DNA from: Parvicella tangerina
GTDB lineage: Bacteria > Bacteroidota > Bacteroidia > Flavobacteriales_D > Parvicellaceae
Assembly: GCF_907165195.1 (NCBI RefSeq)
Contig: NZ_OU015584.1
Span: 1-64,000, forward strand
Reading direction: 5' to 3'
DNA: 64,000 nt
The translations under genes and the position numbers were made by a program. Below, in pieces: positions 7,458 to 25,961 of this stretch (the first letter of the stretch is position 1; each line of letters starts with the position of its first letter). The notes beneath the pieces were generated by a model. It was not told where the DNA came from and ran no database searches. It saw only the letters and a program-made list of their open reading frames with translations.

Positions 7458-7600
7458 TTTTATTTGATATTAACTAGTATTTTTTGTGTCCGCACGAAAG
7501 TATTACATTTTTTTGTTTTAATAAAGTTCGTCCTTATAAAATTGGTTGATTGAACGGGAAATAGTTTCAATTTATCCTAAGAATTGATGAATTAATCTGT

Positions 7601-8443
7601 CTAATGGATGAAATGGAATGCAAAACCTTTTTCCATTTCTTCTAATTGTAACTCACCATTGGAATAAGACCAAAATAACATACCATCTTTAACGGTTGAT
7701 TTTGAATTAAATAAGCTATTAAGCCGCTTTTCGATAGATAATGCATCAAGCATTTTTAGCTTTTTACTTACTGAACAATTATAGATCAGTTGAATCTGAC
7801 CTTCTTGACAATTGACGGTGATACCCCCGAATGTTTTTGCATTAAGTGTATCTAATAAAATGCTATTGTTAAGTTTTTGTTGAATCAGCCCTGCCAGATA
7901 ATCTTGTGCAGAATAGAGGTCTCCTACACAATCCGTGTTTCCGGAATTAACAGATTTGGAAATAATCAAGTCAATGCCCTCTTCGGGATAGATTTTCAAT
8001 TGATAACTAATTCCCTGATGTTCCCACTTATTGGTATAAAGCGTAGAATCTTTTGTAGAGGCAGTCAGGAGGTTTGATATGTCCGATTTCAGCGCATTAA
8101 GTTCTTGGATGCTTTTTATCATTCCAGCCGAATCGGTATATGTGGCATATTTGATGGCCTCGAGTTGTCCTTCGTTAAAATAAAAAGTTCGTTTTAGAGA
8201 GACTTGATCAAGTTCAATGGTGTCTTCATGACCTTCTGGTAAGTTAAAGTGTTGCTGAATGTCTTCAAGGCTAATACTGTCCAAACCATTTTCATAAACG
8301 TATTGACAAACCAGTAAGCCATGATCACTTAGGGTTAGCGGAGCTGAAGGTGTTGAATTTGAAGAAGCTGCTTCTTCTTTGTTTTCAGATTGACAGGAGA
8401 ACAGTAGAAAGCTCAGTGGAATTATGAAGATATACTTAATCAT
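7601..8443 (-). CDS. Lipoprotein with two related domains, paralogue 2
   Basis: A 280-residue lipoprotein with signal peptide ending LLFSC (Cys17). The second half starts CVGDLYSAQDYLAGLIQQKL and has the same order of segments as the neighbouring paralogues (GGITVNCQEGQIQLIYNC, a leucine-rich helix, a W-x-Y-x-N-G-x-L strand pair). The N-terminal half again resembles the first domain of the 6486 protein (LKRTFYFNEGQLEAIKYATY and KWEHQGISYQLKIYPEEG). It is more diverged than the other two. It starts 27 bases after the 8471 gene, probably in one operon. No function is known to me. Confidence 0.75.
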   Translation of the reverse strand: MIKYIFIIPLSFLLFSCQSENKEEAASSNSTPSAPLTLSDHGLLVCQYVYENGLDSISLEDIQQHFNLPEGHEDTIELDQVSLKRTFYFNEGQLEAIKYATYTDSAGMIKSIQELNALKSDISNLLTASTKDSTLYTNKWEHQGISYQLKIYPEEGIDLIISKSVNSGNTDCVGDLYSAQDYLAGLIQQKLNNSILLDTLNAKTFGGITVNCQEGQIQLIYNCSVSKKLKMLDALSIEKRLNSLFNSKSTVKDGMLFWSYSNGELQLEEMEKGFAFHFIH

Positions 8444-8470
8444 GGTTATTCCCGCTAAGGTAATTGTTTC

Positions 8471-9034
8471 TTATAAGTTGGCATCAATATAGATACCATA
8501 ACCGTCTTCAAAATTGGTTTTTCGAATCGTCATACCGTTAAAGTTCCAACTCACGCTTTTTGCATCAGAATCATTATCAGTTGCCCCTTTTTCTCCGATA
8601 GCTTTGTTAAGTGCGTTCGTGATAGCTGCTTGATCAACAGGTAACAATTCTAAAGCTTCTTCGCATTGATAGAAACAATCGATCGCAATGGACTTCAAAA
8701 CATCGTCTTCGTAGGTATAGAAAGCCGTTAATTCGATTCCATTATAATCTTTGGTTAACTTGTCTGCATGACCAGTAAGTTCTTTCATCTCCTCTTTGGT
8801 TGTTTTTCCCAGGAGTATTTCCTCTTGTTTTAACGGACCAATAAACAGTTGATTAATATCCTTTTGGAGTTCAACATAATCACCTAAACAGTCATCATAG
8901 GTTAATATTTCTTCATGTTCTTGTTCGCTTTTAGAGGGTTCTTTTTCTTCCTTTTGACTGGTAGTATTGTTGCATGAAGTGAGCACTCCAAATATAGAAG
9001 CGAGCGTTAAGAGTGAAATGATTGAATTCCTCAT
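8471..9034 (-). CDS. Single-domain lipoprotein, paralogue 3
   Basis: A 187-residue lipoprotein: signal peptide ending LTSC, a Lys/Glu-rich linker, then one domain beginning CLGDYVELQKDINQLF. It aligns through its length with the C-terminal domain of the 6486 protein: GKTTKEEMKELTGHADKL against GSTTKSEMAAITGDETGF, IAIDCFYQCEEALELL against ITLDYFYDCDGALSLL, and SWNFNGMTIRKTNFEDG against EWTINGMSVRQANFSDG. A tandem duplication explains the cluster. Conserved cysteines in C-x-G-D and in FYxC may pair. It is the first gene of the pair with 7601. Confidence 0.78.
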   Translation of the reverse strand: MRNSIISLLTLASIFGVLTSCNNTTSQKEEKEPSKSEQEHEEILTYDDCLGDYVELQKDINQLFIGPLKQEEILLGKTTKEEMKELTGHADKLTKDYNGIELTAFYTYEDDVLKSIAIDCFYQCEEALELLPVDQAAITNALNKAIGEKGATDNDSDAKSVSWNFNGMTIRKTNFEDGYGIYIDANL

Positions 9035-9127
9035 GATTATGGTTGTATAACTTTATAACCGTAAAAATAGAGAATTAACCAGATCAGTTTACGAGATACC
9101 TTACTTCTTTACAAGATATTAATTGAA

Positions 9128-11566
9128 TTAGAATAAAATCTTGTACTGCGCAATGGGAAGAAAGCCTGTTTGATATCGCTTTAAAATGGATTCACTGGCT
9201 GGATCATAAACTTGCTGGAATATATTCTTTCGATTTGTTAAGTTTTGAAAATTAATACTCCATTCCTGAGTGATCTTGGCTCCATTCCGTTTATATCCCA
9301 CTTTTAAGTCTGTTCTGAAATAGTCTTTATATTGTTTTGAGTAGGCATTTTCAAAATCGTATACAGCCTCGTTAGCAGCATTACTTGCTTCAAGGTCTAT
9401 TGGAATATAGCGTTGTCCTCCGTTGAGTGTCCACTTAAAGTCAAGGACCAAAGTATTTTTTGCTTTTGCATTTTCTTTTTTGGTGAACAACTGAAACTCT
9501 TTTCCGATCAAAAAGTTAGTTGTGTAATTTCCATTAAAGGCAGTACTTCGTTCAACACCATCACTTCCTTTATAGGTCGACTGATAAAGAGACCCTGTGA
9601 AAAGGTAATAGAAACCTTCATGTAAAAACCGTTCTACGGTAATTTCAATACCATAATTAGCACCTGTTCCCTCATTAACAAGTGTATCTGGAAATACAAG
9701 ATCAAAGTTAGCTCCATAATTTAAGGTGCTATAAAATGAACTGACAATTTCTACAGGTGCGTTGTCGATGAGTTGATAATAGACCTCTGTTTTAATCCTG
9801 GAATGCGGTCCGGTACTTTGATCATACCCCAGTACAAAATGATTACTTCTGATCATTCCCAATTCCCTGTTTGGAATAACTGCATTGCCGTTATCATCGA
9901 GAATTGTATTCCCTTCATCATCAGAAATTTGCCTAAAAAACAAACGGCTGGGTGGTAGTTGGTTGTGCATTCCATAAGCCACAGATAGTGATGCTTTTTT
10001 CGCGACTTGATATTTAAATCCAACTCTCGGTTCAATAGCAAATGTATTGTTGAGGAAGAAGTATTGACCGTGGATGCCTGTGTTTAAAGTTGCTTTTTCA
10101 TTGATTCTAAACTGCCATTGTGCAAAGGGTTGGACAAAGTAAGTAGCACCATTATTATTGGTAATGTTGTACCAATAGGGTGAAGTGATCAACGTGTCAA
10201 AAGTGGGTGGAATAAGAAAGGTGTCGGGTCTGATGTGAACACTATCTTTCAGGTTGTAATACCTTCTTTGGCTGTAGATACCTGTTTTAAGGAGGTGCCT
10301 AGCGTTAAGTTTGTTTTGATAAACAAGATTGAGAGACTGTTTACCCTCCAGTGAGGTGTTTCGATAAAATGGATGATACGCTCCTGTTGAGCTATTAAGG
10401 GTGTCATTACTAATTTCATTAAAAGTACCATCAATTGAGAAACTTGTTTTAATGAATGAACTTTTATTTAATCGAAAGGTATTAGAAATCCCTGCTGCTC
10501 CAATATTTGAAGTGAAAATGAGGTCTTCACCATTATCTGCATAAAGGTTGGGGTCTTCATTTTCACTATCCAGAAACTTAACGGCAGATAAACCTCCGAT
10601 TCCCCAAACTGTAAACTTACCTTTCTTATTGGGCAAATTAATTTTAAAAGATAAATCTTGGTAGTCTGGAACAGAAGTTCCTGTTCCAAAATTAATTCCC
10701 ATCAACTGAAAGACTTGTAACGTTGAATATCGGTAACTGATTAAATACGAAGAGAACTTTTCTTTACTAATTGGTCCTTCAGCCATAAACTCTAAGCCAT
10801 TAAAACCTAATTGCCCTAGGAATTCATGCTTTTGGTTGTTTCCAGACCGCATCTTGAGATCAAATACACCTGCGAGCGCATTTCCGTATTCGGCAGGAAA
10901 AGCACCGGTCATAAAATCGCTGTTATCTAGGACGTTGTTGTTTAGAATACTAACAGGACCCCCGGTAGTTCCATTTAAGGCAAAGTGATTGGGGTTGGGA
11001 ATATCAATATCTTCAAATCGAAAGAGAACGCCAGTAGGACTATTTCCTCTGATAATGATATCGTTTCTGCTGTCGTCAGCGCCTTGAACGCCAGCAAAGT
11101 TTTGTGCCATTCTAGCAACATCATTCAAGCTACCAGCATATCGCATACTTTCCTCAATTGAAAATGTTCGTGCGCTGACGGTAGTCATTTCGTTTTGCGC
11201 TTTTTCCTTTTTGTTTTCTGCAGCAACAATAACTTCGTCCATCACGATACTTTCCCTGAGCTCTATATTCAGAATGAGCTCTTTTCCAGAAGAAAGTTCT
11301 ACATTGGAAATACTTTTTGGTTCGTAGCCCACGTATGATATGGTAAGGTCCACCCTACCTACTGGAATATCCTTTATGGTAAAATTTCCATTAACATCTG
11401 TTGCTGCTCCTATCGTGTTTTCGAGATTAGTTACCAATATGTTTGCACCAATCAATGGGGTTTTAGTATCCATATCAATGATTGTTCCTCTTATGTTTTG
11501 CGTGATCTGTGCAGACAAAGGCAGAATAGTGAACAAAATCAATAGGAATGCGATGAGGTGTTTCAT
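9128..11566 (-). CDS. TonB-dependent receptor with carboxypeptidase-regulatory-like domain
   Basis: An 812-residue outer-membrane transporter. A signal peptide ends at LSAQ (about residue 19), followed by a CarboxypepD_reg-like domain (about 22-110: IRGTIIDMDTKTPLIGANI, FTIKDIPVGRVDLTISYVGY). The plug domain has RNDIIIRGNSPTGVLFRFE and PAEYGNALAGVFDLKMRSG; the rest is beta-barrel ending in aromatic LF. No SusD partner is adjacent, so it is not a standard glycan-uptake SusCD pair; such receptors often serve peptides, metals or proteins, and the substrate here cannot be told. The only close same-strand neighbour is the LytTR regulator 130 bases upstream, which might control it. Confidence 0.9.
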   Translation of the reverse strand: MKHLIAFLLILFTILPLSAQITQNIRGTIIDMDTKTPLIGANILVTNLENTIGAATDVNGNFTIKDIPVGRVDLTISYVGYEPKSISNVELSSGKELILNIELRESIVMDEVIVAAENKKEKAQNEMTTVSARTFSIEESMRYAGSLNDVARMAQNFAGVQGADDSRNDIIIRGNSPTGVLFRFEDIDIPNPNHFALNGTTGGPVSILNNNVLDNSDFMTGAFPAEYGNALAGVFDLKMRSGNNQKHEFLGQLGFNGLEFMAEGPISKEKFSSYLISYRYSTLQVFQLMGINFGTGTSVPDYQDLSFKINLPNKKGKFTVWGIGGLSAVKFLDSENEDPNLYADNGEDLIFTSNIGAAGISNTFRLNKSSFIKTSFSIDGTFNEISNDTLNSSTGAYHPFYRNTSLEGKQSLNLVYQNKLNARHLLKTGIYSQRRYYNLKDSVHIRPDTFLIPPTFDTLITSPYWYNITNNNGATYFVQPFAQWQFRINEKATLNTGIHGQYFFLNNTFAIEPRVGFKYQVAKKASLSVAYGMHNQLPPSRLFFRQISDDEGNTILDDNGNAVIPNRELGMIRSNHFVLGYDQSTGPHSRIKTEVYYQLIDNAPVEIVSSFYSTLNYGANFDLVFPDTLVNEGTGANYGIEITVERFLHEGFYYLFTGSLYQSTYKGSDGVERSTAFNGNYTTNFLIGKEFQLFTKKENAKAKNTLVLDFKWTLNGGQRYIPIDLEASNAANEAVYDFENAYSKQYKDYFRTDLKVGYKRNGAKITQEWSINFQNLTNRKNIFQQVYDPASESILKRYQTGFLPIAQYKILF

Positions 11567-11696
11567 GTTTCAGCGTTTTCTCGACACAAAGAAAAAAAGG
11601 TTTTTGATGGGGTTATGAGGTTTTGGTAGGAATGGTGTGGTTTTGTGATGTTTGACAAACATGATTTTTCCAGAATCAACCTTTTTATTCGTTGCA

Positions 11697-12563
11697 TCAT
11701 TTATAGTAAGCGTCAAAAGTGGTGATATTTGATCGAGACACTGGAATAGTTTTTTCATCAAATCCGAGTAAGTGCAATTGATAACCCTGAGCATTTCCTG
11801 TAACCTTACCAACCTTACTGAGGTTGACAATAAAACTGCGATGTGTTTTCAAAATAGCGTCTGCAGGGAGTGTATTAACAAACGATGCAAGGGCAGATCG
11901 AAATGTTACTTTCTTAATTTGCTCATTTTCGAGATAGTAGATATCACAATAATTCCCTATACTTTCTATAAATAGGAGATTACTGAGTTTTAGGTCAATG
12001 GATTCATACTTTCCGCTACCCGTGAGTTGATAGGTCGTTTCTCCAATGGAGTTTGACTTTTTATGAATATGCTCATTAACTGCAAGAGCGCTTTCTATAT
12101 TTTTATTCTGATGAAAATATAGGTAAAAAGTAACAACAACGATCATAGGAATTACACCCACAATGAATGTAGCTAGTATTACCTTCAAAAGGGTAACAAT
12201 ATTAAAGCTACTATTCGGGTAGAAAACTTCTCTACCAATAAAAAAGTTTGCAATAGCGATGGAAAGTAGTATAATGAATAACATTAAGATCTCTTTGCCA
12301 ACGGTCCATGATGAAGTATTAAATGCTTTGGGAAAGATCCTCGTCAAAATATTGGTGTACGTAAAGGAAACACCAAAGGTTATTGCGGCAAATAATATTG
12401 AATCAAGAAAGCTGTAGGAAACATTTTCGCTAAAAAATAGGCTTGGCTTAAATACATACAAGATGAAAAATACGACCAGCGCAACTGTCACGTTTATGAT
12501 TGTCGATTTGCGGTAGCCTTCTTCAATAATAGAAGGATAAGGTTTGTATAAATAACTTAACAC
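11697..12563 (-). CDS. Membrane-anchored LytTR transcriptional regulator
   Basis: A 288-residue protein with four predicted membrane helices in its first half (about residues 22-41, 52-74, 90-110 and 120-150) and a LytTR DNA-binding domain at about 190-288 (LLFIESIGNYCDIYYLENEQ, LPADAILKTHRSFIVNLSKV). There is no receiver domain, so a membrane signal rather than phosphorylation probably controls it. The start is GTG at 12563, as no ATG precedes the first helix. It lies upstream of the TonB receptor on the same strand and divergent to gpsA with 46 bases between. Regulation of the receptor gene is plausible but is inference. Confidence 0.85.
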   Translation of the reverse strand: MLSYLYKPYPSIIEEGYRKSTIINVTVALVVFFILYVFKPSLFFSENVSYSFLDSILFAAITFGVSFTYTNILTRIFPKAFNTSSWTVGKEILMLFIILLSIAIANFFIGREVFYPNSSFNIVTLLKVILATFIVGVIPMIVVVTFYLYFHQNKNIESALAVNEHIHKKSNSIGETTYQLTGSGKYESIDLKLSNLLFIESIGNYCDIYYLENEQIKKVTFRSALASFVNTLPADAILKTHRSFIVNLSKVGKVTGNAQGYQLHLLGFDEKTIPVSRSNITTFDAYYK

Positions 12564-12609
12564 AATGCAAAATTAAGAATATTGTACATTAGCTTTATAT
12601 TTAAAGATT

Positions 12610-13587
12610 ATGAAAGTAGGAATTCTTGGAGGTGGTTCATGGGCAACTGCAATAGCAAAAATATTAACGGATAATGGAGCAAAGATCAACTGGTGGGTTA
12701 GAAGTGTAGAACAAGCTGATCATATCAAGGAACATAAACATAACCCTAGATACTTAAGGTCGGTTGAGTTTTTGGATGGTGAACTAGAACTTTATACAGA
12801 CTTAGATAAGTTTCTGGAATGTACAGAAGTGATAATAGTTGCCACTCCGTCCGCATTTATTCACTCCGTATTGGCTGCTAAGAGCCTGAGTGATAAAAAA
12901 ATTGTTTCGGCAGTAAAGGGAATTATTCCAGAATACAATCTGATTCCGGCCCATTATTTTTCTGAATACCATAAAATCCCAATGAATGACATTGCCATTA
13001 TTAGTGGTCCTTGTCATGCAGAGGAAGTAGCTATGGAAAAGCTGTCTTATTTAACGATTGCAAGTGAGGACTCTGCTCTGTCCAAATTAGTTGCAGATAA
13101 AATGGATGGACGATATATTCGTTGTAGTGTCTCAGAAGACCTGGTTGGTACAGAAATTTCTGCTGTGTTGAAGAATGTTTATGCTTTAGCATGTGGTATC
13201 GCTCACGGCTTGGGTTATGGAGATAATTATATGGCGGTGCTGGTGAGTAATGCTATACAGGAAATAGAGCAGTTTATTGATCACGCCTATCCGCTACATA
13301 GAGATGTTAAGCAATCTGCTTATTTGGGAGATTTATTGGTAACCGCATATTCCTTGCACAGTAGAAACAGACGCTTTGGGAACCTTTTGGGAAAAGGATA
13401 TTCCTTGAATACGGTTAAACAAGAAATGAATATGGTAGCAGAAGGTTATTATGCTGCGGCATGCATAAATGAATTAGCGGCTCAACATAATGTTGAGTTG
13501 ACAATCGCAAATACGGTTTATGAAATTTTGTATAAGCAAGTTAACCCAAGATCAGCATTTATAGATTTGAGTAAAAAACTGTACTAA
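12610..13587 (+). CDS. gpsA: NAD(P)H-dependent glycerol-3-phosphate dehydrogenase
   Basis: Makes sn-glycerol 3-phosphate from dihydroxyacetone phosphate for phospholipid synthesis. The 325-residue protein has the N-terminal dinucleotide-binding motif GILGGGSWATA (4-14), the segment SGPCHAEEV typical of GpsA, the catalytic lysine region in AVLKNVYALACGI (about 191-203) and the substrate-binding HSRNRRFGNLLGKG late in the protein. Length and motif order are normal. It is a single gene, divergent from the LytTR gene; the next gene downstream is convergent, 153 bases away. Confidence 0.95.
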   Translation: MKVGILGGGSWATAIAKILTDNGAKINWWVRSVEQADHIKEHKHNPRYLRSVEFLDGELELYTDLDKFLECTEVIIVATPSAFIHSVLAAKSLSDKKIVSAVKGIIPEYNLIPAHYFSEYHKIPMNDIAIISGPCHAEEVAMEKLSYLTIASEDSALSKLVADKMDGRYIRCSVSEDLVGTEISAVLKNVYALACGIAHGLGYGDNYMAVLVSNAIQEIEQFIDHAYPLHRDVKQSAYLGDLLVTAYSLHSRNRRFGNLLGKGYSLNTVKQEMNMVAEGYYAAACINELAAQHNVELTIANTVYEILYKQVNPRSAFIDLSKKLY

Positions 13588-13740
13588 AATTAGGTTTTTA
13601 CTTGATGACTCATTTTAAGTCTCTGAAAATCAAAGGAAAACAAAAAACTTTAGCAAACACACCTATAAACTAACATCATGAAGTTTTAGGGGTACAACAC
13701 TGCTGAGAGCAAAAAATTGCTTAAATCGTTTAAAAAAGGC

Positions 13741-14568
13741 TTATTTGTTCCTAAATTTCTTAATGAACGTGATTAAGCCATTTGGCAACACCTTATTGGC
13801 AAAATTGACCGTTTTATTATAACGCGTCATCGACTTGCTGTCGATACCTTTTCGTTCGGCAAAAGTTGTCGTCACTCTGCCGCGATCTTTTCCTTGAACT
13901 TCGTTTTCAGGACGAGTTTCTGTATAGTAATATAATGCAAGTGATTTTCTGCTCCTATCTTCAGGGCATGTCAATGGGTCAGGATGACCGTGCCACGAAT
14001 CTCCTGTTGTAGAGAACATCGCCATACGATTAAAGATGGGAAGTATTTTAACCGCTGATTTGCTCATGTCTTTTTCCCAAAGTTCAAAATGGCCACCATA
14101 CGATTCTTCCCAATCTTTGTTCAAGTAAATCAGGAGGTTCAATCTTCTATGAAGATCTAGCTTACGGTGCTTATGAAAGTCAACATGGATTTTTAAGAAT
14201 CCTCCTGGCTTAATTTGATGAAAGCCTCCTCCTTCGAAATGAGGATCAGCAAGTAACGGCTCTTTTATGCCAGTCAACTTATTCAGGAAGTCTCTGAACT
14301 CCTGAGAGTTTAAATATTCAACCAGCTTTTTGGTGTTTGGTCCGAACAGTTCATCTCCCTTTGTTGCATGCTTGTCTTCGTTCGGGTTTTTATAATAGAT
14401 CTGATCTGGTTTTTTGTCCAGATCGGGAAACTCATCCAATACTTTATTCAATAGATCCTCATCTATAAAATCATCTATTGAACCATGAGGAAAAGGTTTT
14501 GCATTTTGATAATCATCAGCATACTTTGCCAAAAGATCGTCTAAACTTCCATGTTTCTTGTTTAACAT
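13741..14568 (-). CDS. 2-oxoglutarate/Fe(II)-dependent oxygenase, prolyl-hydroxylase-like
   Basis: A 275-residue protein with the P4Hc-type double-stranded beta-helix. The metal triad is visible: HVDFH (His and Asp, about residues 128-131) and the distal His in DSWHGHPDPL (about 194), with the 2-oxoglutarate-binding Arg in DRSRKSLALYYY. FELWEKD and RLNLLIYLNKDW are typical of the family members found in surface-polysaccharide and small-molecule clusters. No signal peptide, so it acts in the cytoplasm. It follows a class I methyltransferase by 6 bases and is last in the mnmG cluster. The substrate is unknown; protein, sugar or lipid-linked targets are possible. Confidence 0.85.
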   Translation of the reverse strand: MLNKKHGSLDDLLAKYADDYQNAKPFPHGSIDDFIDEDLLNKVLDEFPDLDKKPDQIYYKNPNEDKHATKGDELFGPNTKKLVEYLNSQEFRDFLNKLTGIKEPLLADPHFEGGGFHQIKPGGFLKIHVDFHKHRKLDLHRRLNLLIYLNKDWEESYGGHFELWEKDMSKSAVKILPIFNRMAMFSTTGDSWHGHPDPLTCPEDRSRKSLALYYYTETRPENEVQGKDRGRVTTTFAERKGIDSKSMTRYNKTVNFANKVLPNGLITFIKKFRNK

Positions 14569-14574
14569 AATTAA

Positions 14575-15474
14575 TTATTTCTTAGCTTTTTTAATAACGT
14601 AAATCTGACTGGAGTAGGTTCCGTTTTTTGCCTTGAGGTTAGAGATTAGGCCAAACCAAAATCCTTTCACCAAATTTACAAAACTAAATTCAGAATTACC
14701 TGATTTATACTTCTCACTTTCCAAACTGATCCAGAAAGCATCGAACTTCATTGGAATCATCTCTACAACTTCAAAACCCTCCTTTTCAAACAGTAACTTG
14801 ATGTCTGAAGGTGTAAAGTGATAGAGGTGAATGGGTAAGTCGTATGCTGACCAAAATTCTTTGTATTTTTTTGCGTCCGGTGAGCTGCAATTTGGAACTG
14901 CGATAAACAGTGTTCCGTCATCCGTAAGAATGCGCCTAAACTGTCGGATATCTTCCTTTAAATTGTAAAGATGCTCCAAAACGTGCCACAAGGTAATTGT
15001 ATCATAAGAACCATCAGGAATCGTATGAACTTCGTCTGGAGTACGCATCTCGATGTTAGATTTGTTAATGGCTAGTTGACGAGCGCTATCATCCGGTTCA
15101 ACTCCTTTTACCTTCCACCCTTTTTCCTTGACGTAATTCAAAAAGACACCCGATCCTGCACCAAAATCTAATAATGATTTGTTGCTGGAATAGCGATTAA
15201 TGAGTTTAAACTTTTGGGACAACGTTCTTTTGCGTACAACATGAAATAAGAAGTTGACGAGTCCTTTTTTAGTTTCCGTATGAGATATGTAGTTTTCGGT
15301 GTTGTAGTACGCTCCTATCTCATCTTCGCTTGGTAGAGGATTGGTAAACCGAAACCCACAAGAGGCACATTGCTCTATGGTAAAAGGCGTGTTGTTTATC
15401 CTGAAGTTTTTAGACTGCAGGAAGTGTTTGATTTCTTCCCCTTCACATATCGGGCATGCTTTAATTTGAATCAT
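14575..15474 (-). CDS. Class I SAM-dependent methyltransferase with N-terminal zinc-binding segment
   Basis: A 299-residue protein. An N-terminal CPIC (8-11) and CASCGF (about 36-41) form a probable zinc site, as in sugar C-methyltransferases and related enzymes. The Rossmann motif I is LLDFGAGSGVFLNYV, the acidic loop is VKGVEPDD, and LWHVLEHLYN is the motif shared by Methyltransf_23-type enzymes. It lies 34 bases after mnmG and just before the 2OG oxygenase. The pair may modify one small molecule or a surface glycan, but no glycosyltransferase is nearby to support this. It is not a GidB (RsmG) protein, despite lying next to mnmG. Confidence 0.85.
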   Translation of the reverse strand: MIQIKACPICEGEEIKHFLQSKNFRINNTPFTIEQCASCGFRFTNPLPSEDEIGAYYNTENYISHTETKKGLVNFLFHVVRKRTLSQKFKLINRYSSNKSLLDFGAGSGVFLNYVKEKGWKVKGVEPDDSARQLAINKSNIEMRTPDEVHTIPDGSYDTITLWHVLEHLYNLKEDIRQFRRILTDDGTLFIAVPNCSSPDAKKYKEFWSAYDLPIHLYHFTPSDIKLLFEKEGFEVVEMIPMKFDAFWISLESEKYKSGNSEFSFVNLVKGFWFGLISNLKAKNGTYSSQIYVIKKAKK

Positions 15475-15494
15475 AATTACTTCCTTTTTGAAAA

Positions 15495-15510
15495 TGTTCC
15501 ACGTGGAACT
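15495..15510. promoter_or_regulatory. parS-like site 2
   Basis: TGTTCCACGTGGAACT keeps the CACGTG core-type palindrome and differs at one end base from a perfect 16-bp palindrome of the ParB/Spo0J parS type. It overlaps the mnmG stop codon. Confidence 0.72.
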
Positions 15511-17383
15511 ATCTACCTAATTTGATTAATAAAACAGATATGTCACTCGGTTTAATACCGCTAATTCTTGACGCCTGACCTATGGTTTTGGGTTGTATCT
15601 TTTTAAGTTTCTCTTTACTCTCGTTAGAGAAAGTCGGAAAATCATCATAGTTAATATCTGGCGGTATTTCTACATACTCGAGTCGTTCGATTTTTTCTGC
15701 AACATCCTTTTCTCTACTAATGTATCCCTCGTATTTTATTTGAATCTCTGCTTGTTGTTCTATTTCGGGAGTGATGTTTTCATGGTTAGTGAGGTACGAG
15801 TATAAGCTTTTTGATCCCTCTTTTAAGGTGTGAATTGAAACGTTTGGTCTGGTAAGCACCGTGTTCATTTTAACTTTTTGCTTAATCGGTGAGTCCCCTA
15901 GTTTTTCAAGAACAGGATTCATTTCGTCTGGCTTCAAGGAAGTCTTTTTGATATAATCTATCAGTTGTTCCGTTTCTGAAATTTTCTGTTCAACTGCCTT
16001 TAAGCGATCATCAGAAGCTAGTCCGATTCGATGTGATAATTCAGTAAGGCGCATATCTGCATTATCGTTTCTCAAAAGAATCCTGTACTCAGCTCTTGAG
16101 GTAAACATTCGGTAAGGTTCCTCGGTTCCTTTAGTAATTAAATCATCGATTAGCACACCGATATAGGCTTGACTTCTATTGAGGATAAAAGGATCCTTTT
16201 CTTGCAACTTAAGGCTCGCATTAATACCCGCCATAAGACCTTGTGAAGCTGCTTCTTCATAACCTGTTGTTCCGTTGATTTGTCCTGAAAAGTACAATCC
16301 GTCAACGAGCTTTGTTTCTAAGGTATGCTTCAGTTGGGTGGGTGGAAAATAATCGTACTCAATAGCGTATCCTGGCCTGAACATTTTAGCTTTCTCAAGT
16401 CCTGGAATTTTGTGAAGTGCGTCCAACTGAACTTCTTCTGGTAATGATGTGCTAAAACCGTTGATGTAGTACTCTATAGTGTTCCAACCTTCTGGCTCAG
16501 CAAATATTTGGTGTCTTTCCCGGTGTGCGAACCGATGTATCTTATCTTCTATAGATGGACAGTACCTTGGACCAACACTTTTAATAGCTCCATTGAACAT
16601 AGGGCTACGATCAAATCCTGTGCGCAGCATGTCATGAACTTCTTCATTGGTGTAAGTGATCCAACATGACTTTTGTTTTGTCAATGGCGTTGTCTCTGGA
16701 CTAAATGAAAATTTTCCAGGATTTTCGTCTCCGGGCTGTTCGATCATCTTGCTGAAGTCAATGGTTCTACCATCGACCCTTGGGGGAGTACCAGTTTTCA
16801 TTCTTCCTGACTCAAAACCTAATTCTTCCAATTCCTTGGTGATACCAAACGCTGCGCGCTCTCCCATTCTTCCTCCTCCAAATTGTTTTTCTCCCAGGTG
16901 AATTATACCATTGAGGAAAGTGCCGCTGTTAAGAATAACGGCTTTGGCTTTAATCTCCAGTCCCATGCTTGTTTTTACACCTGTAACTTTACCTGATTGA
17001 GTGGTAATGCCAGTTACCATGTCTTGCCAGAAATCAAGGTTTTTCAACCCTTCTAATGTTAGTCTCCATGTTTGTGAGAACAACATTCTGTCATTTTGAG
17101 CTCTTGGGCTCCACATGGCGGGTCCTTTGCTTAGGTTAAGTAATTTAAATTGAATCGCGCTCTTATCGGTTATTATTCCAGTGTACCCACCTAGTGCGTC
17201 AATCTCGCGTACGATTTGTCCTTTAGCTATACCTCCAATCGCTGGATTGCAACTCATTTGACCCATGGTTTCCATATTCATGGTTACCAACAAAGTCTTT
17301 GATCCCAAGTTTGCAGCAGCAGCAGCAGCCTCGTTACCTGCGTGTCCTGCACCTACTACTATAATGTCATATTCTTGTAGCAT
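15509..17383 (-). CDS. mnmG: tRNA uridine-5-carboxymethylaminomethyl modification enzyme MnmG
   Basis: The FAD-dependent partner of MnmE that installs carboxymethylaminomethyl groups at U34 of certain tRNAs. The 624-residue protein has the N-terminal FAD motif [35 protein letters not shown], a GTFLNG segment, [19 protein letters not shown] and [16 protein letters not shown], all standard for the family, and a C-terminal helical domain (MnmE- and tRNA-binding) ending [14 protein letters not shown]. Length is typical. It follows ybeY by 53 bases. parS-like palindromes lie immediately upstream of its start and over its stop, which fits the frequent location of mnmG near the replication origin. 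Confidence 0.96.
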
Positions 17384-17388
17384 GATTC

Positions 17389-17404
17389 TGTTTCACGTGA
17401 AACA
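17389..17404. promoter_or_regulatory. parS site 1 (perfect consensus)
   Basis: TGTTTCACGTGAAACA is the perfect 16-bp parS palindrome bound by ParB/Spo0J. It begins 5 bases upstream of the mnmG start, in the ybeY-mnmG gap. parS sites normally cluster near oriC. Confidence 0.88.
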
Positions 17405-17436
17405 ACCGCAATTCACTGAATAACAGTTGCTTGTGT

Positions 17437-17853
17437 TTAAAATGATCGCAAATTTAGGTAATAATCTTCCTTTTCGCGCATTAATTCTTCGTCTTTCTTT
17501 GATTTGTCTTTGTATCCACACAAATGGAGGACACCATGTATCATTACACGATGGAGTTCATCAAGAAACGTTACTCCTAACTTATTAGCATTGTCCTCTA
17601 CCCTTTCAATAGAAATAAATAAATCACCAGAGACGATATTTTCCTCACAATAGTCAAACGTGATAATGTCGGTATAATAGTCGTGATTTAGAGCTGAACG
17701 ATTCAATTCTAAAAGATACTGATCGGAACAAAATATATACGTAATGGCACTTGGGGTCTTGCCTTCTGCTTTAATAGCTTCATTGATCCATTTTCGCAAA
17801 GAAAGTTTGTTCTTTACGTCAAATGCAATGTCTTCTTGATGATAATAAATCAT
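17437..17853 (-). CDS. ybeY: Endoribonuclease YbeY (rRNA maturation)
   Basis: A small zinc-dependent RNase involved in 16S rRNA 3'-end maturation and ribosome quality control. The metal motif HGVLHLCGYKDK preceded by LHRVM is the UPF0054 signature, slightly changed at the end (K-D-K rather than D-H-x-x-x-x-x), so the third ligand needs a look; SGDLFIS is also typical. The ATG at 17853 is chosen because it gives the usual 138-residue protein starting MIYYHQED and lies 2 bases after the upstream lipoprotein stop; a longer frame extends to 17889. It is followed by mnmG. Confidence 0.88.
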   Translation of the reverse strand: MIYYHQEDIAFDVKNKLSLRKWINEAIKAEGKTPSAITYIFCSDQYLLELNRSALNHDYYTDIITFDYCEENIVSGDLFISIERVEDNANKLGVTFLDELHRVMIHGVLHLCGYKDKSKKDEELMREKEDYYLNLRSF

Positions 17854-17855
17854 GA

Positions 17856-18230
17856 TTAATTGTTTGGAGCCCCATCGGAAGCCCAACATTCTATGACCTG
17901 AATCAGTGAATCAGACAACTTGGGCAATTGATACGGCATGGGTGTTTTTCCTGCCTCATGATTAATTGCGGTCAAAATAGCATCGATATTAGCCGCAATC
18001 TCAGCATGTGTTTCCCAACTTTGACCATTTGCCTGATTATTGCTTGAATTGTGACAAACAACACAGTTATCATTAAAAATGGGCTGAACATCTGTAGCAA
18101 ATGATTTGGGAATCGAATCACATACGTCTGGTTCTATTACTTCTGGAGCAGGTGTTGTATCTTTAGCACAACTACTTATTAATAGAAGTATTAATGGTAA
18201 TATGAGTAGTTTTTTCATAGGTTTGATCAT
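17856..18230 (-). CDS. Lipoprotein with a single c-type haem motif
   Basis: A 124-residue (or 120 from the Met at 18218) lipoprotein with signal peptide ending LISSC. It carries CVVCH, the covalent haem-binding motif, in DVQPIFNDNCVVCHNSSNNQ, and a possible Met ligand in GKTPMPYQLPKLSD; this arrangement is like the small cytochrome-c-like domains of Bacteroidota. It is probably an electron carrier or a structural haem protein facing the periplasm. It directly precedes ybeY with 2 bases between, and diverges from the CxxCH-containing secreted protein at 18260, only 29 bases away. Confidence 0.82.
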   Translation of the reverse strand: MIKPMKKLLILPLILLLISSCAKDTTPAPEVIEPDVCDSIPKSFATDVQPIFNDNCVVCHNSSNNQANGQSWETHAEIAANIDAILTAINHEAGKTPMPYQLPKLSDSLIQVIECWASDGAPNN

Positions 18231-18259
18231 TAACAGTGAACTAAAATAGCAAAAACAAG

Positions 18260-19102
18260 ATGAAAAGATCGATATACATTGTGTTAATATTAGCTTTCGT
18301 TGTGTTGCACTCTTTTAAGCCGAGTTCGCTAAAGCCATCTTATTGTGATGAAATGGAGGAAGACTTTAGTAGTAATCCCCCTGCCGCTACAACCGGAGCA
18401 CCAGGTGAGGTGACTTGTGTGAATTGTCACTCGGGCTCTACCCTACCCGCCTCTGGAATTGTTACTTTTTCCTTTTCTGGAGCAAATGATAAGTATGCAA
18501 CTGGAGAGTCGTATATCATAACAATTGGAAAGTCTGGATCTGTAAAAACGGGATTTGAAATGACAGCACTAGATGATAACAACAATGCTGCAGGAGATTT
18601 TACTGCTGGTGCAAATACTTCGCTCACTTCACATTCAGGCAGGAACTATATAAGACACTCAGCGTCAGCTGGTATCAGTTCATGGTCCTTTACCTGGAAT
18701 GCTCCAAGCACTTCATTGGGTGATGTAACATTCTACTATTCATTAAATGAATCCAATAATGATAACAATAGCCAGGGAGACCAAATTTATTTAGGCTCAA
18801 ACACTATTTCCTATGATTTGGCAAGTGGGGTAGTTGAGAACAAGAAAAGAGCGGAAGCTGTAGAGGTTTCATTGAATAGTGGTCAACTGGTTGTTAACTT
18901 GAACCTTCCAGAAACAGCGTCAATTTATTATACTTCTCAGAATTTAAGTGGCAGGCAAATTGACTTTCATAGTTTTGGTCAAAAACAACAAGGGAATCAC
19001 GTTTTAACCATTCATTTGGGGGATAAGTACACTGCTGGGTTTTACTTATTCACTATTTTCATAGATAACAAACCTTATACTTCAAAGATCGTATTACCAT
19101 AA
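18260..19102 (+). CDS. Secreted choice-of-anchor V protein with CxxCH motif
   Basis: A 280-residue exported protein with an N-terminal signal (about 1-20). Residues 45-60 contain TGAPGEVTCVNCHSG, the beginning typical of the choice-of-anchor V domain; CVNCH is a possible c-haem site. The middle is a reelin-like beta-domain (ATGESYIITIGKSG, FEMTALDDNNNAAGDF). The C-terminus (TAGFYLFTIFIDNKPYTSKIVLP) resembles a type-A T9SS sorting domain, so the protein is probably sent to the surface. The partner lipoprotein with CVVCH is divergent, 29 bases away. Function unknown. Confidence 0.8.
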   Translation: MKRSIYIVLILAFVVLHSFKPSSLKPSYCDEMEEDFSSNPPAATTGAPGEVTCVNCHSGSTLPASGIVTFSFSGANDKYATGESYIITIGKSGSVKTGFEMTALDDNNNAAGDFTAGANTSLTSHSGRNYIRHSASAGISSWSFTWNAPSTSLGDVTFYYSLNESNNDNNSQGDQIYLGSNTISYDLASGVVENKKRAEAVEVSLNSGQLVVNLNLPETASIYYTSQNLSGRQIDFHSFGQKQQGNHVLTIHLGDKYTAGFYLFTIFIDNKPYTSKIVLP

Positions 19103-19167
19103 ATAATGATGAGAGGCTGTTCTATTTCATTCGAATAAAGTAGTTTCGCATTAAATTCCTTTTACTA

Positions 19168-20166
19168 ATGGATATTAGAGACATATTAGCAGACCGTATT
19201 TTAGTACTTGATGGGGCTATGGGAACCATGATCCAGCGATATAACCTGACCGAAGAAGACTTTAGAAAAGGTCGATTTGAAGATCACCCGCATGACCTTA
19301 AAGGAAACAATGATATCCTGGTCTTAACACGTCCGGATGTGATCAAAGAGATCCATTCCGCTTATTTAGAAGCGGGTGCAGACATTTTGGAGACCAACAC
19401 GTTTGGTGGAACTTCAGTCGCTCAAGCGGATTATCATTTGGAAGATGCCGTTTACGATATCAACTATTTTGGTGCGAAGATCGCGAAAGAGGTAGCAACG
19501 GAATTCACGGCCAAAAACCAAGATAAGCCTCGTTTTGTTGCAGGTTCGATGGGGCCAACCACAAAACTTTCTTCCATGTCTCCTGATGTAAATGATCCAG
19601 GGTTCAGAGCAATCACTTTTGATGAGTTAGTAATAGCTTTTGAAGAACAAGCCTCCGGATTGATCGATGGGGGAGCGGACTTGTTATTAGTAGAAACAGT
19701 GACGGATACCTTAAATGCAAAAGCGGCTTTGTTTGCGATCCAGAATGTATTTGAAAAGAAAGGCGTAGAGTTGCCAATTATGGTTTCAGGAACGATTACG
19801 GATGCGAGTGGCAGAACGTTAACCGGTCAAACTACAGAGGCTTTTTTAGTGTCGATCAGTCACATGCCGTTGCTAAGTGTGGGGCTGAACTGTGCTTTGG
19901 GCGCTGAGGATATGAAGCCTTACCTTAAAGTAATGGCAGATAAAAGTGATTTCTTCGTAAGTGCACACCCAAACGCAGGACTCCCAAATGAGCTTGGAGC
20001 TTACGATGAAACACCAGAAATGATGGCGGGATACATCAAAGCTTTCCTAGATGAAAACTACGTAAATATCGTAGGAGGTTGTTGTGGAACTACCCCAGAT
20101 CACATCAAGGCGATCGCTGAAGTAGCGGCTACTTATCAACCGAGAAGAGTAGGGGAGAAGGTATGA
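19168..20166 (+). CDS. Homocysteine S-methyltransferase module of split MetH
   Basis: A 332-residue protein matching the N-terminal homocysteine-binding module of cobalamin-dependent methionine synthase: [14 protein letters not shown] (14-27), [15 protein letters not shown], the first zinc Cys in GLNCALG and the Cys pair in [11 protein letters not shown]. It ends after this barrel, so the folate, B12 and activation domains of full-length MetH (about 1200 residues) are missing. Bacteroidota often encode MetH as two polypeptides; the partner is not in this window. The next gene begins 154 bases later and is unrelated, so this looks like a genuine separate gene rather than a truncation. The start is preceded by a TAGTTTCG close to the -7 consensus. 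Confidence 0.9.
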
Positions 20167-20320
20167 TTCGTTCTGAAGTATAGAATTCATCAGGCAATAA
20201 ATTGATCCTATACCGTTTGGTATCAATGTCATTCAGGTAGCGTTTCGGGTTTTTCCTTCCTTTCATTAAAGGAGGAAAGTATTTGTCTTTCCTACCATTA
20301 TATTTACTACTTTAGAAGGG

Positions 20321-22576
20321 GTGAAGTGGATTAAACTTAAAATAGCACTTCTGGGATTATGGTCCTTTGGTCACAGCCTATTAGCGCAGGACCATAAGAA
20401 AATCGAAGACCTGTATGACCAGTTTCTCGTTTTAGAATTCGAGCAAGCTGATTCGGCATTTACCCTGCTTCAAGAAGGCCTTCAGCTGGCAAAATCGCAA
20501 CAAAACAAGGAGCTAATTGGTTTGGGGTATAAATACATGTCATGGTATTATCAAGACATTGATGAACTGTCTGTTTCGCTAAAGTATGCTGATTCTTGTA
20601 TTCAAATTGGAGAACAGATCAACGACAAGGAAAGTTTGGTTGATGCTTATAATCAGATGGGAAACCTGCTATCAGATCAGGCGTTGCTGGATTCTAGTCT
20701 GTTTTGGTATCAAAAAGGTCTTAATCTCTCTAAAAGTCTCAACGATATCCAAGGCGTTGCTAAGGTCAGCAATAATATGGCACTGGCCTTTGTCGATCAG
20801 GGAGAGTACTTGAAGGCGATCGACCATTATCACCTGTCTATTGAAATGAGCGAAAAAATAGGGGATACCCAATCCGTTGGAGATGCATACAATAACTTGG
20901 GAACCCTCTTTGTTCAAATTGAAGACTTTGAACAAGCGCTGGATTATCACGAAAAGGCTTTTGAGATTAGAAAATCAACTGGTGATCCAGTTGGAATGAG
21001 CTCTGTTCAGCTCAATATAGGTAGGATCTATTTGGCTAGGAAACAGTTCGGAGTGGCAAGAGACTACTTTTTTAAATCTTTAGCAATAGATCAAGAGATC
21101 AAAGATCTAGGGGGAATAGCTTTGAACTATAACAATATAGGCCTTTCTTATTTTAGAGAAGGGATTCTAGATTCTGCAATTTACTATTACGAAGCTTCAC
21201 TCAAGATAAGAATCGAAATAGGAGATCCTTTCGGTCAGGCACTCACATACACGAACATTGGTGAGTATTATCTAGAGCAAGGTAAGCCAGATAAGGCCAT
21301 AGAAAATTGCTCATCTTCTTATCAAATTGCGAATAGCAAGGATATTCCCTACGAAAAGTTAGCTTCTTGTGAGTGTTTATACCAAGCTTATCAAGAAAAG
21401 AAAAACTTCTCATTGGCTTATAAGTTTTTGAAAGAAGCCGTTGAGATAGAGGCTAGCTTAAACTCTGAGGAGAACAATAAGGCAATGACCAAAAAAGAAA
21501 TGCAGTTTGTGTTTCATTATCAAGCGCTTGAAGATAGCCTAAAACAGGCTGAAATAATGGCTCAAAAAGAGGCAGAAGCACAGTTCTTAATCAAAACGGC
21601 AGAGCTTGAAAAAGATAAAATTGCAACAGAGAAAAATAATCAATTGTGGCTATTCTCGTTGATCGGATTTTTCATTGCGGTTATCGGAATTATTATCTAT
21701 GTGCAACTAAGAAGGCAAAAAACGGTAAACAAACTCATTCAAGAACAAAAAGAGTTCATTCAGTATCAAAAGCACGAAATTGAGCAAAGTATTGCGTATG
21801 CTCAAGAGATACAAGATACTTCCCTGCCGAGCAAAAGTATTCAATCCCTATTTAGGGATACGCTTTTGATCTATTTGCCAAGAGATGTGGTGAGTGGAGA
21901 TTTTTATTGGTTGGAGGATGATGAAGAATATGTTTACTTCGCTGCTGCTGATTGCACAGGCCACGGTATACCTGGGGCTTTTATTTCTATGATGGGAACG
22001 ATTCTTCTCAACGAAATCTATAACTCAAAAGAACTCAGAAAGCCAGGGGAAATTCTTGATGAATTGAATAGGCTTGTACAGTTAACACTCATGAGCCGAA
22101 CAGGTAAACAAATGAAAGATGGTATGGATATTTCCTTTTGCCGCTTGAATAAGCAATCAGCTATTCTTGAGTATGCAGGAGCAAATAATCCCGTTTGGAT
22201 CATTTCAGGTTCAGACCAAATAAAGGTTAATGGAGAAATGATAGCACCCAACCTCGTTGGCGAGTCAAACCTTTTTGAAGTCAAAGCAGATAAGCAACCC
22301 ATTGGTAAGTATGCGGATGAAAGCCGATCATTCAAAACTAATACGATCCAATTAAGCGAGAACGATCAGGTTTATTTGTTTTCTGATGGTTTTGCAGATC
22401 AATTTGGAGGAGAAAAGGGAAAGAAGTTTAAGTATAAACCGTTCAAGGAACTCTTGATAAGGACTTCAAAATTATCAGGAGAAGATCAACGTAAACACAT
22501 CATTCAGGTTTTTGAGGCCTGGAAAGGCGATTATGATCAAATTGATGACGTATGTGTTTTGGGCATAAGGGTATAA
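20321..22576 (+). CDS. TPR-repeat membrane protein with SpoIIE phosphatase domain, paralogue 1
   Basis: A 751-residue signalling protein. After a signal peptide ending LLAQ come about seven TPR repeats of roughly 40 residues (residues 50-370; for example AYNNLGTLFVQIEDFEQALDY), a coiled coil, one membrane helix (about 443-463), another coiled coil and a C-terminal SpoIIE/PP2C-like domain (about 510-751) with GDFYWLEDDEEYVYFAAADC, TGHGIPGAF, GAN NPVW-type and FSDGFADQFGG motifs. The Asp residues of the metal site are in place. It likely senses something outside and dephosphorylates a cytoplasmic Ser/Thr-phosphorylated partner. The start is GTG at 20321. A second copy of the architecture lies at 26113. 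Confidence 0.9.
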   Translation: MKWIKLKIALLGLWSFGHSLLAQDHKKIEDLYDQFLVLEFEQADSAFTLLQEGLQLAKSQQNKELIGLGYKYMSWYYQDIDELSVSLKYADSCIQIGEQINDKESLVDAYNQMGNLLSDQALLDSSLFWYQKGLNLSKSLNDIQGVAKVSNNMALAFVDQGEYLKAIDHYHLSIEMSEKIGDTQSVGDAYNNLGTLFVQIEDFEQALDYHEKAFEIRKSTGDPVGMSSVQLNIGRIYLARKQFGVARDYFFKSLAIDQEIKDLGGIALNYNNIGLSYFREGILDSAIYYYEASLKIRIEIGDPFGQALTYTNIGEYYLEQGKPDKAIENCSSSYQIANSKDIPYEKLASCECLYQAYQEKKNFSLAYKFLKEAVEIEASLNSEENNKAMTKKEMQFVFHYQALEDSLKQAEIMAQKEAEAQFLIKTAELEKDKIATEKNNQLWLFSLIGFFIAVIGIIIYVQLRRQKTVNKLIQEQKEFIQYQKHEIEQSIAYAQEIQDTSLPSKSIQSLFRDTLLIYLPRDVVSGDFYWLEDDEEYVYFAAADCTGHGIPGAFISMMGTILLNEIYNSKELRKPGEILDELNRLVQLTLMSRTGKQMKDGMDISFCRLNKQSAILEYAGANNPVWIISGSDQIKVNGEMIAPNLVGESNLFEVKADKQPIGKYADESRSFKTNTIQLSENDQVYLFSDGFADQFGGEKGKKFKYKPFKELLIRTSKLSGEDQRKHIIQVFEAWKGDYDQIDDVCVLGIRV

Positions 22577-22598
22577 TGTTAATCCTTACTACTATAGA

Positions 22599-24206
22599 TT
22601 ACTCCTTCATCATCTTCCCAGATTCCATTGTTCCATCAATAAAAATACGGTAGGCGTATGCCCCAGAAGACAGACGATTCTGCCCAGGAATTTGGAGCGT
22701 ATGCAACCCTTTGCTATAATATTCATTATTCGTGGAGATCACTTTCTTACCAGTCAAATCATACACCTCAAGTTTTACGGTGCTACTTTTTGGTAAACTC
22801 AGAATGATCACAGCTTTGTTATTGTTATAACGTAATTGGTGTAAGTGTTGAATAGAACTAATTTCATCTACACCAATAGAAGAACAATCAAAACCTAAAG
22901 CAAGTTTAGTATATGATGCGCCCAGAATAGTATCTGAGGTTAACTCGTTAACACACATCCAATCTTGTAAAATCGTGGTGTAAACATCTCTAAAATCTGT
23001 AGTATGCTGTAGGTTTCCGAACAGGTCTAAGTTGCTTAAGTCAACATCAGTTCCTACGAAGCCATTTCCGTTTACAGCAGGACCAAACAGCATTAATGGT
23101 GCGGCAGTTCCGTGATCCGTTCCCATGGAGGCGTTGTCATTTACTCGTCTTCCGAACTCAGAGAAAGTCATGGTCAACACCTCATTGTCCTTACCTCCTG
23201 CCTGAAGGTCATCGTAGAAGGCTTTTACAGAATCACCTAACTCAACCAATAGATCTTCGTGTCTAGTATCCTGCTGCGCATGTGTATCAAACCCATCCAA
23301 TGTCAGCATATAGATTTTAGTTTCTAACCCCCCCTGAATCAGTCTTGAAACCAAACTCAAAGAATCTCCTAGTCCGCTTGGAAAGGTTACAGCATTTGTA
23401 GCGTTGTTATAGGCAATCTGAATCGCTTCCGATTGATAATAGGTACTGTTGATCATGCTTTTCATGAAATCCAGCTGATCATCATAATAGCACGATTGAT
23501 TTCCAATAACATTGTATAAAGAACCAGTTTGTGCGATCTGATAAAGGGAATCAGGGTCTACGACATTCATTGCCATATTTAAGTCATCCTCGTTAAAGAA
23601 CAAAATATTGCCATCACCACCAATTTGAATTGCTAACGGATCAGTTGGTGGGTTGGTCACAAAGTCTGGGTTTTGATCCCACAAATATCTTCCCAGCCAA
23701 CCTGAAGCGTCTGATTGTCCGATTTGTGCCGAATCCCAGATATCAGTCGAAGTAAAATGGCTAAGGTCTGGATTGTCATATCCAACGTTTTGAACTACTT
23801 TCATCTTGCCGTTGTCCCAAAGATCCTTTAAGGAAGAAGCATAATTGGGAACTGAATACATTGAATTGAGTGACAATAAATCTGATTGATTAATGGCAAG
23901 GTTCGGACGATAACCAGCATAAGTTCCGTAGTCAAAAACGGGCACAAATGTGTTAAGCCCATCGTTACCTCCCTTTAAACGAATGATAACCAGTACACGA
24001 TCGCCCGCTGATTTTAGGGCATTTTGTACCATAGGTGAGGCCATTAAACTATTAAAAGGTAGTGCAGATAAAGCGACTGTCCCGGCAGTTACGAGACCCA
24101 GGTTCTTGATAAAGTCTCTTCTTCCAATACCTTGGTTATGGTGTTCGTCATGCAAATGTCCATCTTCAAGACGACTACCTTCTGGAATGTTTTTATGTTT
24201 ACTCAT
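22599..24206 (-). CDS. DUF1501 protein with Tat signal and T9SS sorting domain
   Basis: A 535-residue exported protein. The N-terminus has a twin-arginine signal (GRRDFIKNLGLVTAG, about 28-42). The DUF1501 core follows (VLVIIRLKGGNDGLNTFVP, DLSHFTSTDIWDSA, GFDTHAQQDTRHEDLL, FSEFGRRVNDN, GTDHGTAAPLMLFG); these are the alkaline-phosphatase-superfamily-like motifs of this family, with several His and Asp possibly binding metal. The last 80 residues form a type-A Por sorting domain (VKLEVYDLTGKKVIS ... LSSGAYAYRIFIDG). It follows the DUF1800 gene by 28 bases; the two families usually occur together. The biochemical role of the pair is not established. Confidence 0.92.
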   Translation of the reverse strand: MSKHKNIPEGSRLEDGHLHDEHHNQGIGRRDFIKNLGLVTAGTVALSALPFNSLMASPMVQNALKSAGDRVLVIIRLKGGNDGLNTFVPVFDYGTYAGYRPNLAINQSDLLSLNSMYSVPNYASSLKDLWDNGKMKVVQNVGYDNPDLSHFTSTDIWDSAQIGQSDASGWLGRYLWDQNPDFVTNPPTDPLAIQIGGDGNILFFNEDDLNMAMNVVDPDSLYQIAQTGSLYNVIGNQSCYYDDQLDFMKSMINSTYYQSEAIQIAYNNATNAVTFPSGLGDSLSLVSRLIQGGLETKIYMLTLDGFDTHAQQDTRHEDLLVELGDSVKAFYDDLQAGGKDNEVLTMTFSEFGRRVNDNASMGTDHGTAAPLMLFGPAVNGNGFVGTDVDLSNLDLFGNLQHTTDFRDVYTTILQDWMCVNELTSDTILGASYTKLALGFDCSSIGVDEISSIQHLHQLRYNNNKAVIILSLPKSSTVKLEVYDLTGKKVISTNNEYYSKGLHTLQIPGQNRLSSGAYAYRIFIDGTMESGKMMKE

Positions 24207-24234
24207 AGCTGTTGAGTTAAGTCCTATTTATGGG

Positions 24235-25680: not shown

Positions 25681-25961
25681 AGCATTGGTTTTAAATGAGT
25701 TACTAAATGTAAGACTTTTTTTTGTAGGAAAACAATGTTGTTCGTGAAAAAAGGGGAAATATAGGTTCATCTGACCCTAACCCAATACGTTTTTACTATA
25801 TACTAGGGATTAATATACTTTAATAGTATCCTACCCGCTCTTCAGTTACTTAAACATATTTGCAGATTATGCATAACAGAAAAATGACAGCGTTCGAACC
25901 CCTAGAGCAAATCTGAGTTCTCTGCTACCCCAAAAAACAACAAAGGTTTTAGAGAAAAATA

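Follow-up and report, generated by a model that had tools for sequence, protein, structure and literature searches.

Two parS-like sites at the ends of mnmG in Parvicella tangerina and their recurrence at mnmG in other Bacteroidota

Chromosomal ParABS centromeres such as those of Bacillus subtilis, Caulobacter and Pseudomonas consist of a 16-bp palindrome, parS, clustered near the replication origin, and a parA-parB pair whose ParB matches it. Livny and co-workers are said to have provided the founding survey of parS sites in 2007. Noc, a related protein family, also binds a 16-bp palindrome, NBS. Origins are often assigned by dnaA, which marks the origin in many bacteria. An ancestral origin cluster, with rnpA-rpmH, dnaA-dnaN, gidA-gidB and parA-parB, has been described, and a passage of PMC2099444 lists gidA (mnmG) among origin genes. 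According to a Hi-C study of 12 gut species, parS sites mostly cluster at the centre of the contact maps, origins were placed using skew together with the parS clusters and backed by read coverage, and dnaA is no constant origin marker (PMC10197239). The two Bacteroidetes of that study have no known condensin, and its main text mentions neither mnmG nor gidA (PMC10197239). Among the matches listed from the open-access literature, none described parS at mnmG or gidA in Bacteroidota; prior notice elsewhere is possible.

Here we describe two parS-like sites that bracket mnmG in Parvicella tangerina. The genome searched is a single contig of 3,980,026 bases (3.98 Mb), and the window is its bases 1-64000. 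We compare the locus with mnmG neighbourhoods in other genomes, and we weigh the readings under which such sites might be found at this gene.

The mnmG sites and the ParB protein

Both sites fit the 16-bp palindrome TGTTYCACGTGRAACA, with 0 and 1 mismatch (Table 1). An initial annotation of the window had called a perfect parS consensus just upstream of mnmG and a close relative over its stop codon, and both calls were borne out. Site 1 sits inside the 53-bp gap between ybeY and mnmG. Site 2 differs from the exact 16-mer of site 1 at three positions but from the degenerate consensus at only one, the last base, which falls within the mnmG TAG stop (15509-15511, minus strand). The order along the minus strand is ybeY, the gap with site 1, mnmG, site 2 over the stop, and a methyltransferase gene that Pfam and NCBIfam do not identify as gidB (rsmG).

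Table 1. Features of the mnmG locus and of the neighbouring skew minimum (window coordinates)
Feature	Position	Strand	Description
Class I SAM methyltransferase gene	14575..15474	-	Downstream neighbour; PF13489
parS site 2, TGTTCCACGTGGAACT	15495..15510	.	Shares 2 bp with the TAG stop codon of mnmG
mnmG (gidA)	15509..17383	-	tRNA U34 modification enzyme, 624 aa; PF01134/PF13932; TIGR00136, 836 bits
parS site 1, TGTTTCACGTGAAACA	17389..17404	.	Perfect consensus palindrome, 5 bp upstream of mnmG start codon
ybeY endoribonuclease gene	17437..17889	-	Upstream neighbour; PF02130
Flat minimum of cumulative GC skew	1..45000	.	Lowest at 316, second low at 43,047

At up to three mismatches the 64-kb window holds 3 matches against 0.54 expected, and none of 100 shuffles got to 3. 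Across the whole genome, TGTTNCACGTGNAACA occurs with at most one mismatch at three places, 17389 (0 mismatches), 15495 (1 mismatch) and 438131 (1 mismatch); a reversed control pattern gave one place. Two of the three near-matches are thus only 1.9 kb apart, at mnmG, and the genome-wide count that the initial annotation had proposed as a check found the 16-mer not scattered. We rejected 438131 as a third parS: it falls within a long repetitive ORF and looks like chance.

The whole genome gave one ParB_N match, at 2,878,511, in a protein of 301 aa, and a ParA-type ATPase gene adjoins this single parB gene. With the contig taken as a circle, parAB is 1.1 Mb from the mnmG sites, which therefore do not lie close to parA-parB. 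When the genome's own ParA and ParB were used as queries, nothing in the window scored better than E = 0.59, and the only DnaA match in the genome, at 462,448, also falls outside it; the annotation had been right that the window contains no parA, parB or dnaA. Aligned to Caulobacter ParB (6t1f), the protein has K-S-R at 171-173, N at 178, G at 201 and R at 204 (Caulobacter numbering, counted by hand along that alignment). R173 and G201 are given as absolutely conserved in ParB, with Q and R instead in Noc, in a passage of PMC7383237. Since our ParB has both R173 and G201, its sequence places it with proteins of the parS-reading kind. The protein does not fit nucleoid occlusion through Noc and NBS: Q173 and R201 are absent, R and G are present, and the protein scores 230 bits under the Noc model, below the cut-off of 315. 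Judged by their letters, the sites flanking mnmG are ordinary parS, and very probably they serve this chromosome as its centromere.

Position of the origin, dnaA and parB

We sampled GC skew at 20 points round the contig. Every one of the 8 samples between 0.3 and 1.7 Mb had positive skew; of the 11 between 1.9 and 3.98 Mb, 9 were negative, the exceptions lying at 2.3 Mb (+0.050) and 2.9 Mb (+0.051); the sample at 0.1 Mb gave -0.016. Cumulative skew was computed over -200 to +284 kb about the contig join, with the contig assumed to be circular. Its lowest point is at the very start of the window and it stays flat to about 45 kb; hence, the window probably contains the origin or lies near it. 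A second, less deep local minimum is at -67 kb, and skew is reversed from about -68 to -36 kb. From GC skew, the origin probably lies somewhere from about -67 to +45 kb, with 0-45 kb the likeliest part. The suggestion that oriC may be close held up, in that the skew minimum is beside the sites. The further supposition that the origin is probably outside the window is unwarranted, as the window itself contains the skew minimum, though the local minimum at -67 kb keeps the interval wide.

Two features near the minimum deserve mention. The stretch at contig positions 3,916,000-3,944,000 (-64 to -36 kb) is low in GC, at 0.31-0.36 per 4 kb in surroundings of mostly 0.37-0.42, has reversed skew and includes one 20-kb block with one-sided gene orientation. 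It is possibly a recent insertion, and it blurs the origin estimate. Within the low-GC first 8 kb of the window, beside the skew minimum, an ORF at 3769-4827 has by eye the look of a zinc-ribbon transposase.

The single dnaA is 445 kb from the mnmG sites. With dnaA at that distance and parAB 1.1 Mb off, neither marks the origin in this genome; the proposed check of GC skew against dnaA put the skew minimum at the window and left dnaA without value as a marker here. The annotation had seen no set of DnaA boxes, and we found 2 copies of TTATNCACA in the window against 3.25 expected, with no cluster. Nor was there a DnaA-box cluster anywhere in the 484 kb from -200 to +284 kb, and the 3.5 kb around dnaA contained no box. 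An origin at dnaA was rejected on the lack of nearby boxes and on the positive skew of the samples on both sides of 462 kb. Coding-strand bias, taken as another marker of the origin, gave a noisy signal with no clear turn at mnmG.

We also followed mean skew across mnmG in nine relatives, using six 20-kb samples, three per side. The change from negative to positive was clear in five (G038, G078, G125, G034, G136), weak in two (G102, G141) and uninformative in two (G054, G114). With this genome included, 6 of 10 have a clear skew turn at mnmG; its own -80 kb sample is an exception (+0.060).

Wherever parB and mnmG were on one contig (this genome, 9 of the first draw described below and 15 of the second), some 300 kb or more separated the two genes (25/25), the nearest case being G038 at 299.6 kb. 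The position of dnaA varies. Among the 13 genomes of the class with dnaA and mnmG on one contig, the two genes are >300 kb apart in 12 and <=15 kb apart in G038. The 12 single-contig genomes from outside the class comprise four with dnaA <=26 kb from mnmG (G199, G188, G208, G171), three with the genes near opposite contig ends and so probably close if the contig is circular (G238, G210, G150), and five with dnaA 150 kb to 1 Mb away (G195, G243, G201, G181, G152). The simplest history would be that mnmG, parS and dnaA were once together at the origin, that parAB left, and that dnaA then left in most Bacteroidia.

Sites at mnmG in other genomes

Our first draw comprised 149 genomes of the class, of which 93 contained exact TGTTNCACGTGNAACA and 146 contained mnmG. 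The sites measured were the 75 listed, in 45 of those 93 genomes; G013, with 2 sites and no mnmG match, was left out. Among the listed sites of the other 44 genomes, 61 of 73 were <=3 kb from mnmG, and 42 of 44 genomes had at least one such site. Nine of the 12 sites away from mnmG are copies on other contigs of a single genome, G033, and the rest are in G055 (25 kb from mnmG) and in G095 and G126 (other contigs). In G200, as in G055 and G095, a site is either 25 kb away from mnmG or on a different contig. The G033 genome (locus L080) carries twelve exact parS sites on four contigs, many of them 98-99 bp apart.

We then considered neighbourhoods of mnmG in 60 of the 146 class genomes with the gene, extending about 2.5 kb on each side, less at contig ends. 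These genomes represent 57 families, usually one each (f59-f64 omitted; three genomes from f2 and two from f53). In 48 of the 60, mnmG or the roughly 2.5 kb to either side of it held a site with no more than one mismatch, against a mean of 0.045 genomes for 200 permuted palindromes of equal make-up, the largest value being 4. Within 500 bp of mnmG and at up to two mismatches, sites were present in 51 of 60: on both sides in 17, upstream only in 19, downstream only in 15, and on neither side in 9. Sites numbered 1.70 per kb up to 500 bp from mnmG versus 0.046 per kb beyond 1 kb, about 37-fold.

What of the nine genomes that lack a site within 500 bp (G005, G007, G015, G024, G028, G037, G039, G058, G120)? 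Four have exact sites elsewhere, G039 (from 607 bp on), G007, G028 and G037, and five have no exact site; in G015 the contig gives just 128 bp upstream of mnmG. A ParB scan of eight of the nine found the protein in seven. Hence, the absence of mnmG sites does not simply follow the loss of ParB. The remaining scanned genome, G024 (0.5 Mb), is the only one scanned without ParB; it has neither a ParB nor a DnaA match, and no site. It is a single case consistent with the pairing of parS and ParB.

A second set consisted of 80 named loci, the best 80 of 591 confirmed mnmG relatives, an uneven sample that by title is mostly Flavobacteria and Cytophaga relatives. The closest named mnmG found is 78% identical and comes from a MAG labelled Flavobacteriales; the remaining named relatives listed are Bacteroidota by title, except one labelled Limnohabitans. 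Sites were present within 500 bp of mnmG in 78 of 80 named loci at up to two mismatches: on both sides in 60, upstream only in 16, downstream only in 2, and on neither side in 2. In the mnmG neighbourhood, 74 of the 80 have a site at up to one mismatch. Density was 2.36 per kb within 500 bp versus 0.032 beyond 1 kb, about 74-fold. Of the 76 named loci with an upstream site within 1 kb, 70 have the nearest one <=75 bp from the start of mnmG. Downstream sites, counted up to 400 bp after mnmG, occur in 94 relatives (62 named and 32 class); they start 0-9 bp past the mnmG stop in 53 and overlap the stop in 8, 7 of these with TAG.

Some of the named loci stand out individually. Upstream of mnmG the usual number of sites is one or two; L167 (Flavobacterium sp. 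MC2016-06), L172 and L186 have 12, 7 and 6 parS-like sites there, and the spacing in the L167 array is partly about 117 bp. The MAG labelled Limnohabitans (L157, JASGCW010000006.1) has an mnmG that is 66% identical and is preceded by four parS sites; it is probably a mislabelled or mixed bin.

The second draw, from the phylum, comprised 118 genomes, with 75 sites listed in 44 of 87 genomes. Among the sites listed, 72 of 75 were <=3 kb from mnmG, and 41 of 44 genomes had one so placed. Nineteen of the 44 fall in the window's class, 16 of them with a site at mnmG; 12 of the 19 overlap the first survey. The other 25 listed genomes, from outside the class, come from a single family, f70 (two genera), and every one of them has sites 12-35 bp from the mnmG match. 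Exact sites flank mnmG on both sides in 14 of the 25, and an exact upstream site lies 14-17 bp before the mnmG match in all 18 listed genomes having one. Eight phylum-draw genomes (G222, G198, G202, G241, G181, G219, G244, G237) have an mnmG match with one stop codon, perhaps merely the terminal stop. Other families outside the class also carry exact TGTTNCACGTGNAACA sites; distances to mnmG were measured for f70 only. We conclude that parS at mnmG is general in the class and holds also in f70, the one outside family measured.

Readings of the mnmG sites and comparison with known systems

We consider it highly likely that the sites are chromosomal parS of an ordinary ParABS centromere whose placement at mnmG is unusually conserved. 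ParA and ParB would be made from the operon 1.1 Mb distant, and ParB would bind both 16-bp sites at the mnmG ends. Loaded there as a CTP-dependent clamp, ParB would slide into mnmG and the adjoining DNA, and the partition complex thus formed would be moved by ParA once this origin-proximal stretch is copied. Inheritance and selection would together keep the sites at mnmG, a member of the ancestral origin cluster; in most Bacteroidia measured, mnmG and parS would have stayed origin-proximal as dnaA and parAB moved off.

Could the conserved gene order alone have kept the sites where they are? On this account the sites are real parS, held at mnmG only through intact inheritance of the ybeY-mnmG-methyltransferase block, so that the choice of mnmG is meaningless. 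The account is compatible with the ParABS explanation and narrows it, and we regard it as possible, although we lean against it. The block is indeed well conserved. On the same strand as mnmG, 77 of the 80 named loci and 32 of the 60 class loci have a ybeY homologue upstream, and 71 and 30, respectively, have a methyltransferase homologue downstream. Among the 133 loci with enough sequence, 107 have ybeY upstream, and a parS-like site lies within 1 kb, to one side at least, in 106 of the 107. However, the site is still there in 18 of the 26 loci without a detectable upstream ybeY; hence, a conserved block alone does not explain it. Moreover, the bases flanking the 16-mer are merely A+T-rich, which argues that the 16-mer itself is under selection and against general conservation of the gap. 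The choice of mnmG over another gene could still be history.

The palindromes might instead serve mainly to regulate mnmG, with ParB or another factor bound before the start codon repressing or timing the gene and segregation secondary. We think this improbable. The upstream sites are close to the mnmG start, as the named loci and the 14-17 bp spacing of f70 attest, and a clamp bound there could block mnmG transcription; in Pseudomonas aeruginosa, ParB near parS3 and parS4 is said to repress adjacent promoters (PMC5521831). However, a promoter operator would not explain the downstream-only sites of 15 of the 60 class genomes (one of which has just 220 bp of upstream sequence), and as many as 12 sites upstream of mnmG in one Flavobacterium are more centromere-like. 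Regulation of mnmG by ParB would in any case be an added role and not a true alternative.

That the palindromes are RNA hairpins, a leader before mnmG and a terminator after it, and not protein sites, is very improbable. Both are near-perfect inverted repeats and are probably co-transcribed with mnmG. Yet at positions 5 and 12, which the search pattern did not fix (C/T and A/G), the non-pairing combination C-A was seen 43 times among 189 upstream sites and 32 times among 125 downstream sites and is commoner than the wobble T-G (25 upstream, 17 downstream). The would-be loop, CACGTG, is nearly invariant, an invariance partly built in by selection at up to two mismatches. A terminator scan lists nothing at either site, and on that result and the C-A counts we rejected an intrinsic terminator or RNA hairpin.

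The idea of two chance palindromes with the origin at dnaA (462 kb) can claim one near-match 24 kb from dnaA and the fact that the reversed control also gave one place, but that near-match falls in the repetitive ORF, dnaA is without boxes amid positive skew, and recurrence across families excludes chance for the sites, which window shuffles, the genome-wide count and the recurrence in class, named and f70 genomes led us to reject; we give it almost no credence.

The ParABS reading can also be carried further, into a proposal that we put forward tentatively and think unlikely to hold as a whole. mnmG and its two parS sites may form an ancient Bacteroidota centromere cassette, in which selection would hold ParB loading at the ends of the gene. 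ParB occupancy and mnmG transcription might then influence each other, tying tRNA modification, and with it translation capacity, to segregation of the origin, and the cassette would mark the origin where dnaA and parAB do not. As it stands, mnmG could be a centromere marker in a group whose usual marker genes have often moved away, and a rare short mark recurring at mnmG could locate the origin region in Bacteroidota genomes and metagenome contigs. The placement also raises the question why centromere sites persist at one tRNA-modification gene when the genes for the binding protein have moved.

Compared with described systems, the locus is closest to the ParABS centromeres of Bacillus subtilis, Caulobacter and Pseudomonas, with which it shares the palindrome, a parA-parB pair with a matching ParB and origin-proximal clustering. 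It departs from them in that parB lies so far from mnmG in every genome measured and in that the sites abut the ends of mnmG, often at near-fixed spacing. With the ancestral origin cluster it shares gidA (mnmG), here near the skew minimum; it differs in that dnaA and parAB are far from the minimum and the gene after mnmG encodes a different methyltransferase. The locus differs from Noc/NBS in that the site is parS and the ParB has R and G in place of the Q and R of Noc. Its unusual aspect is that the sites stand at the mnmG ends, an arrangement recurring in most families examined, with the ParB gene far off.
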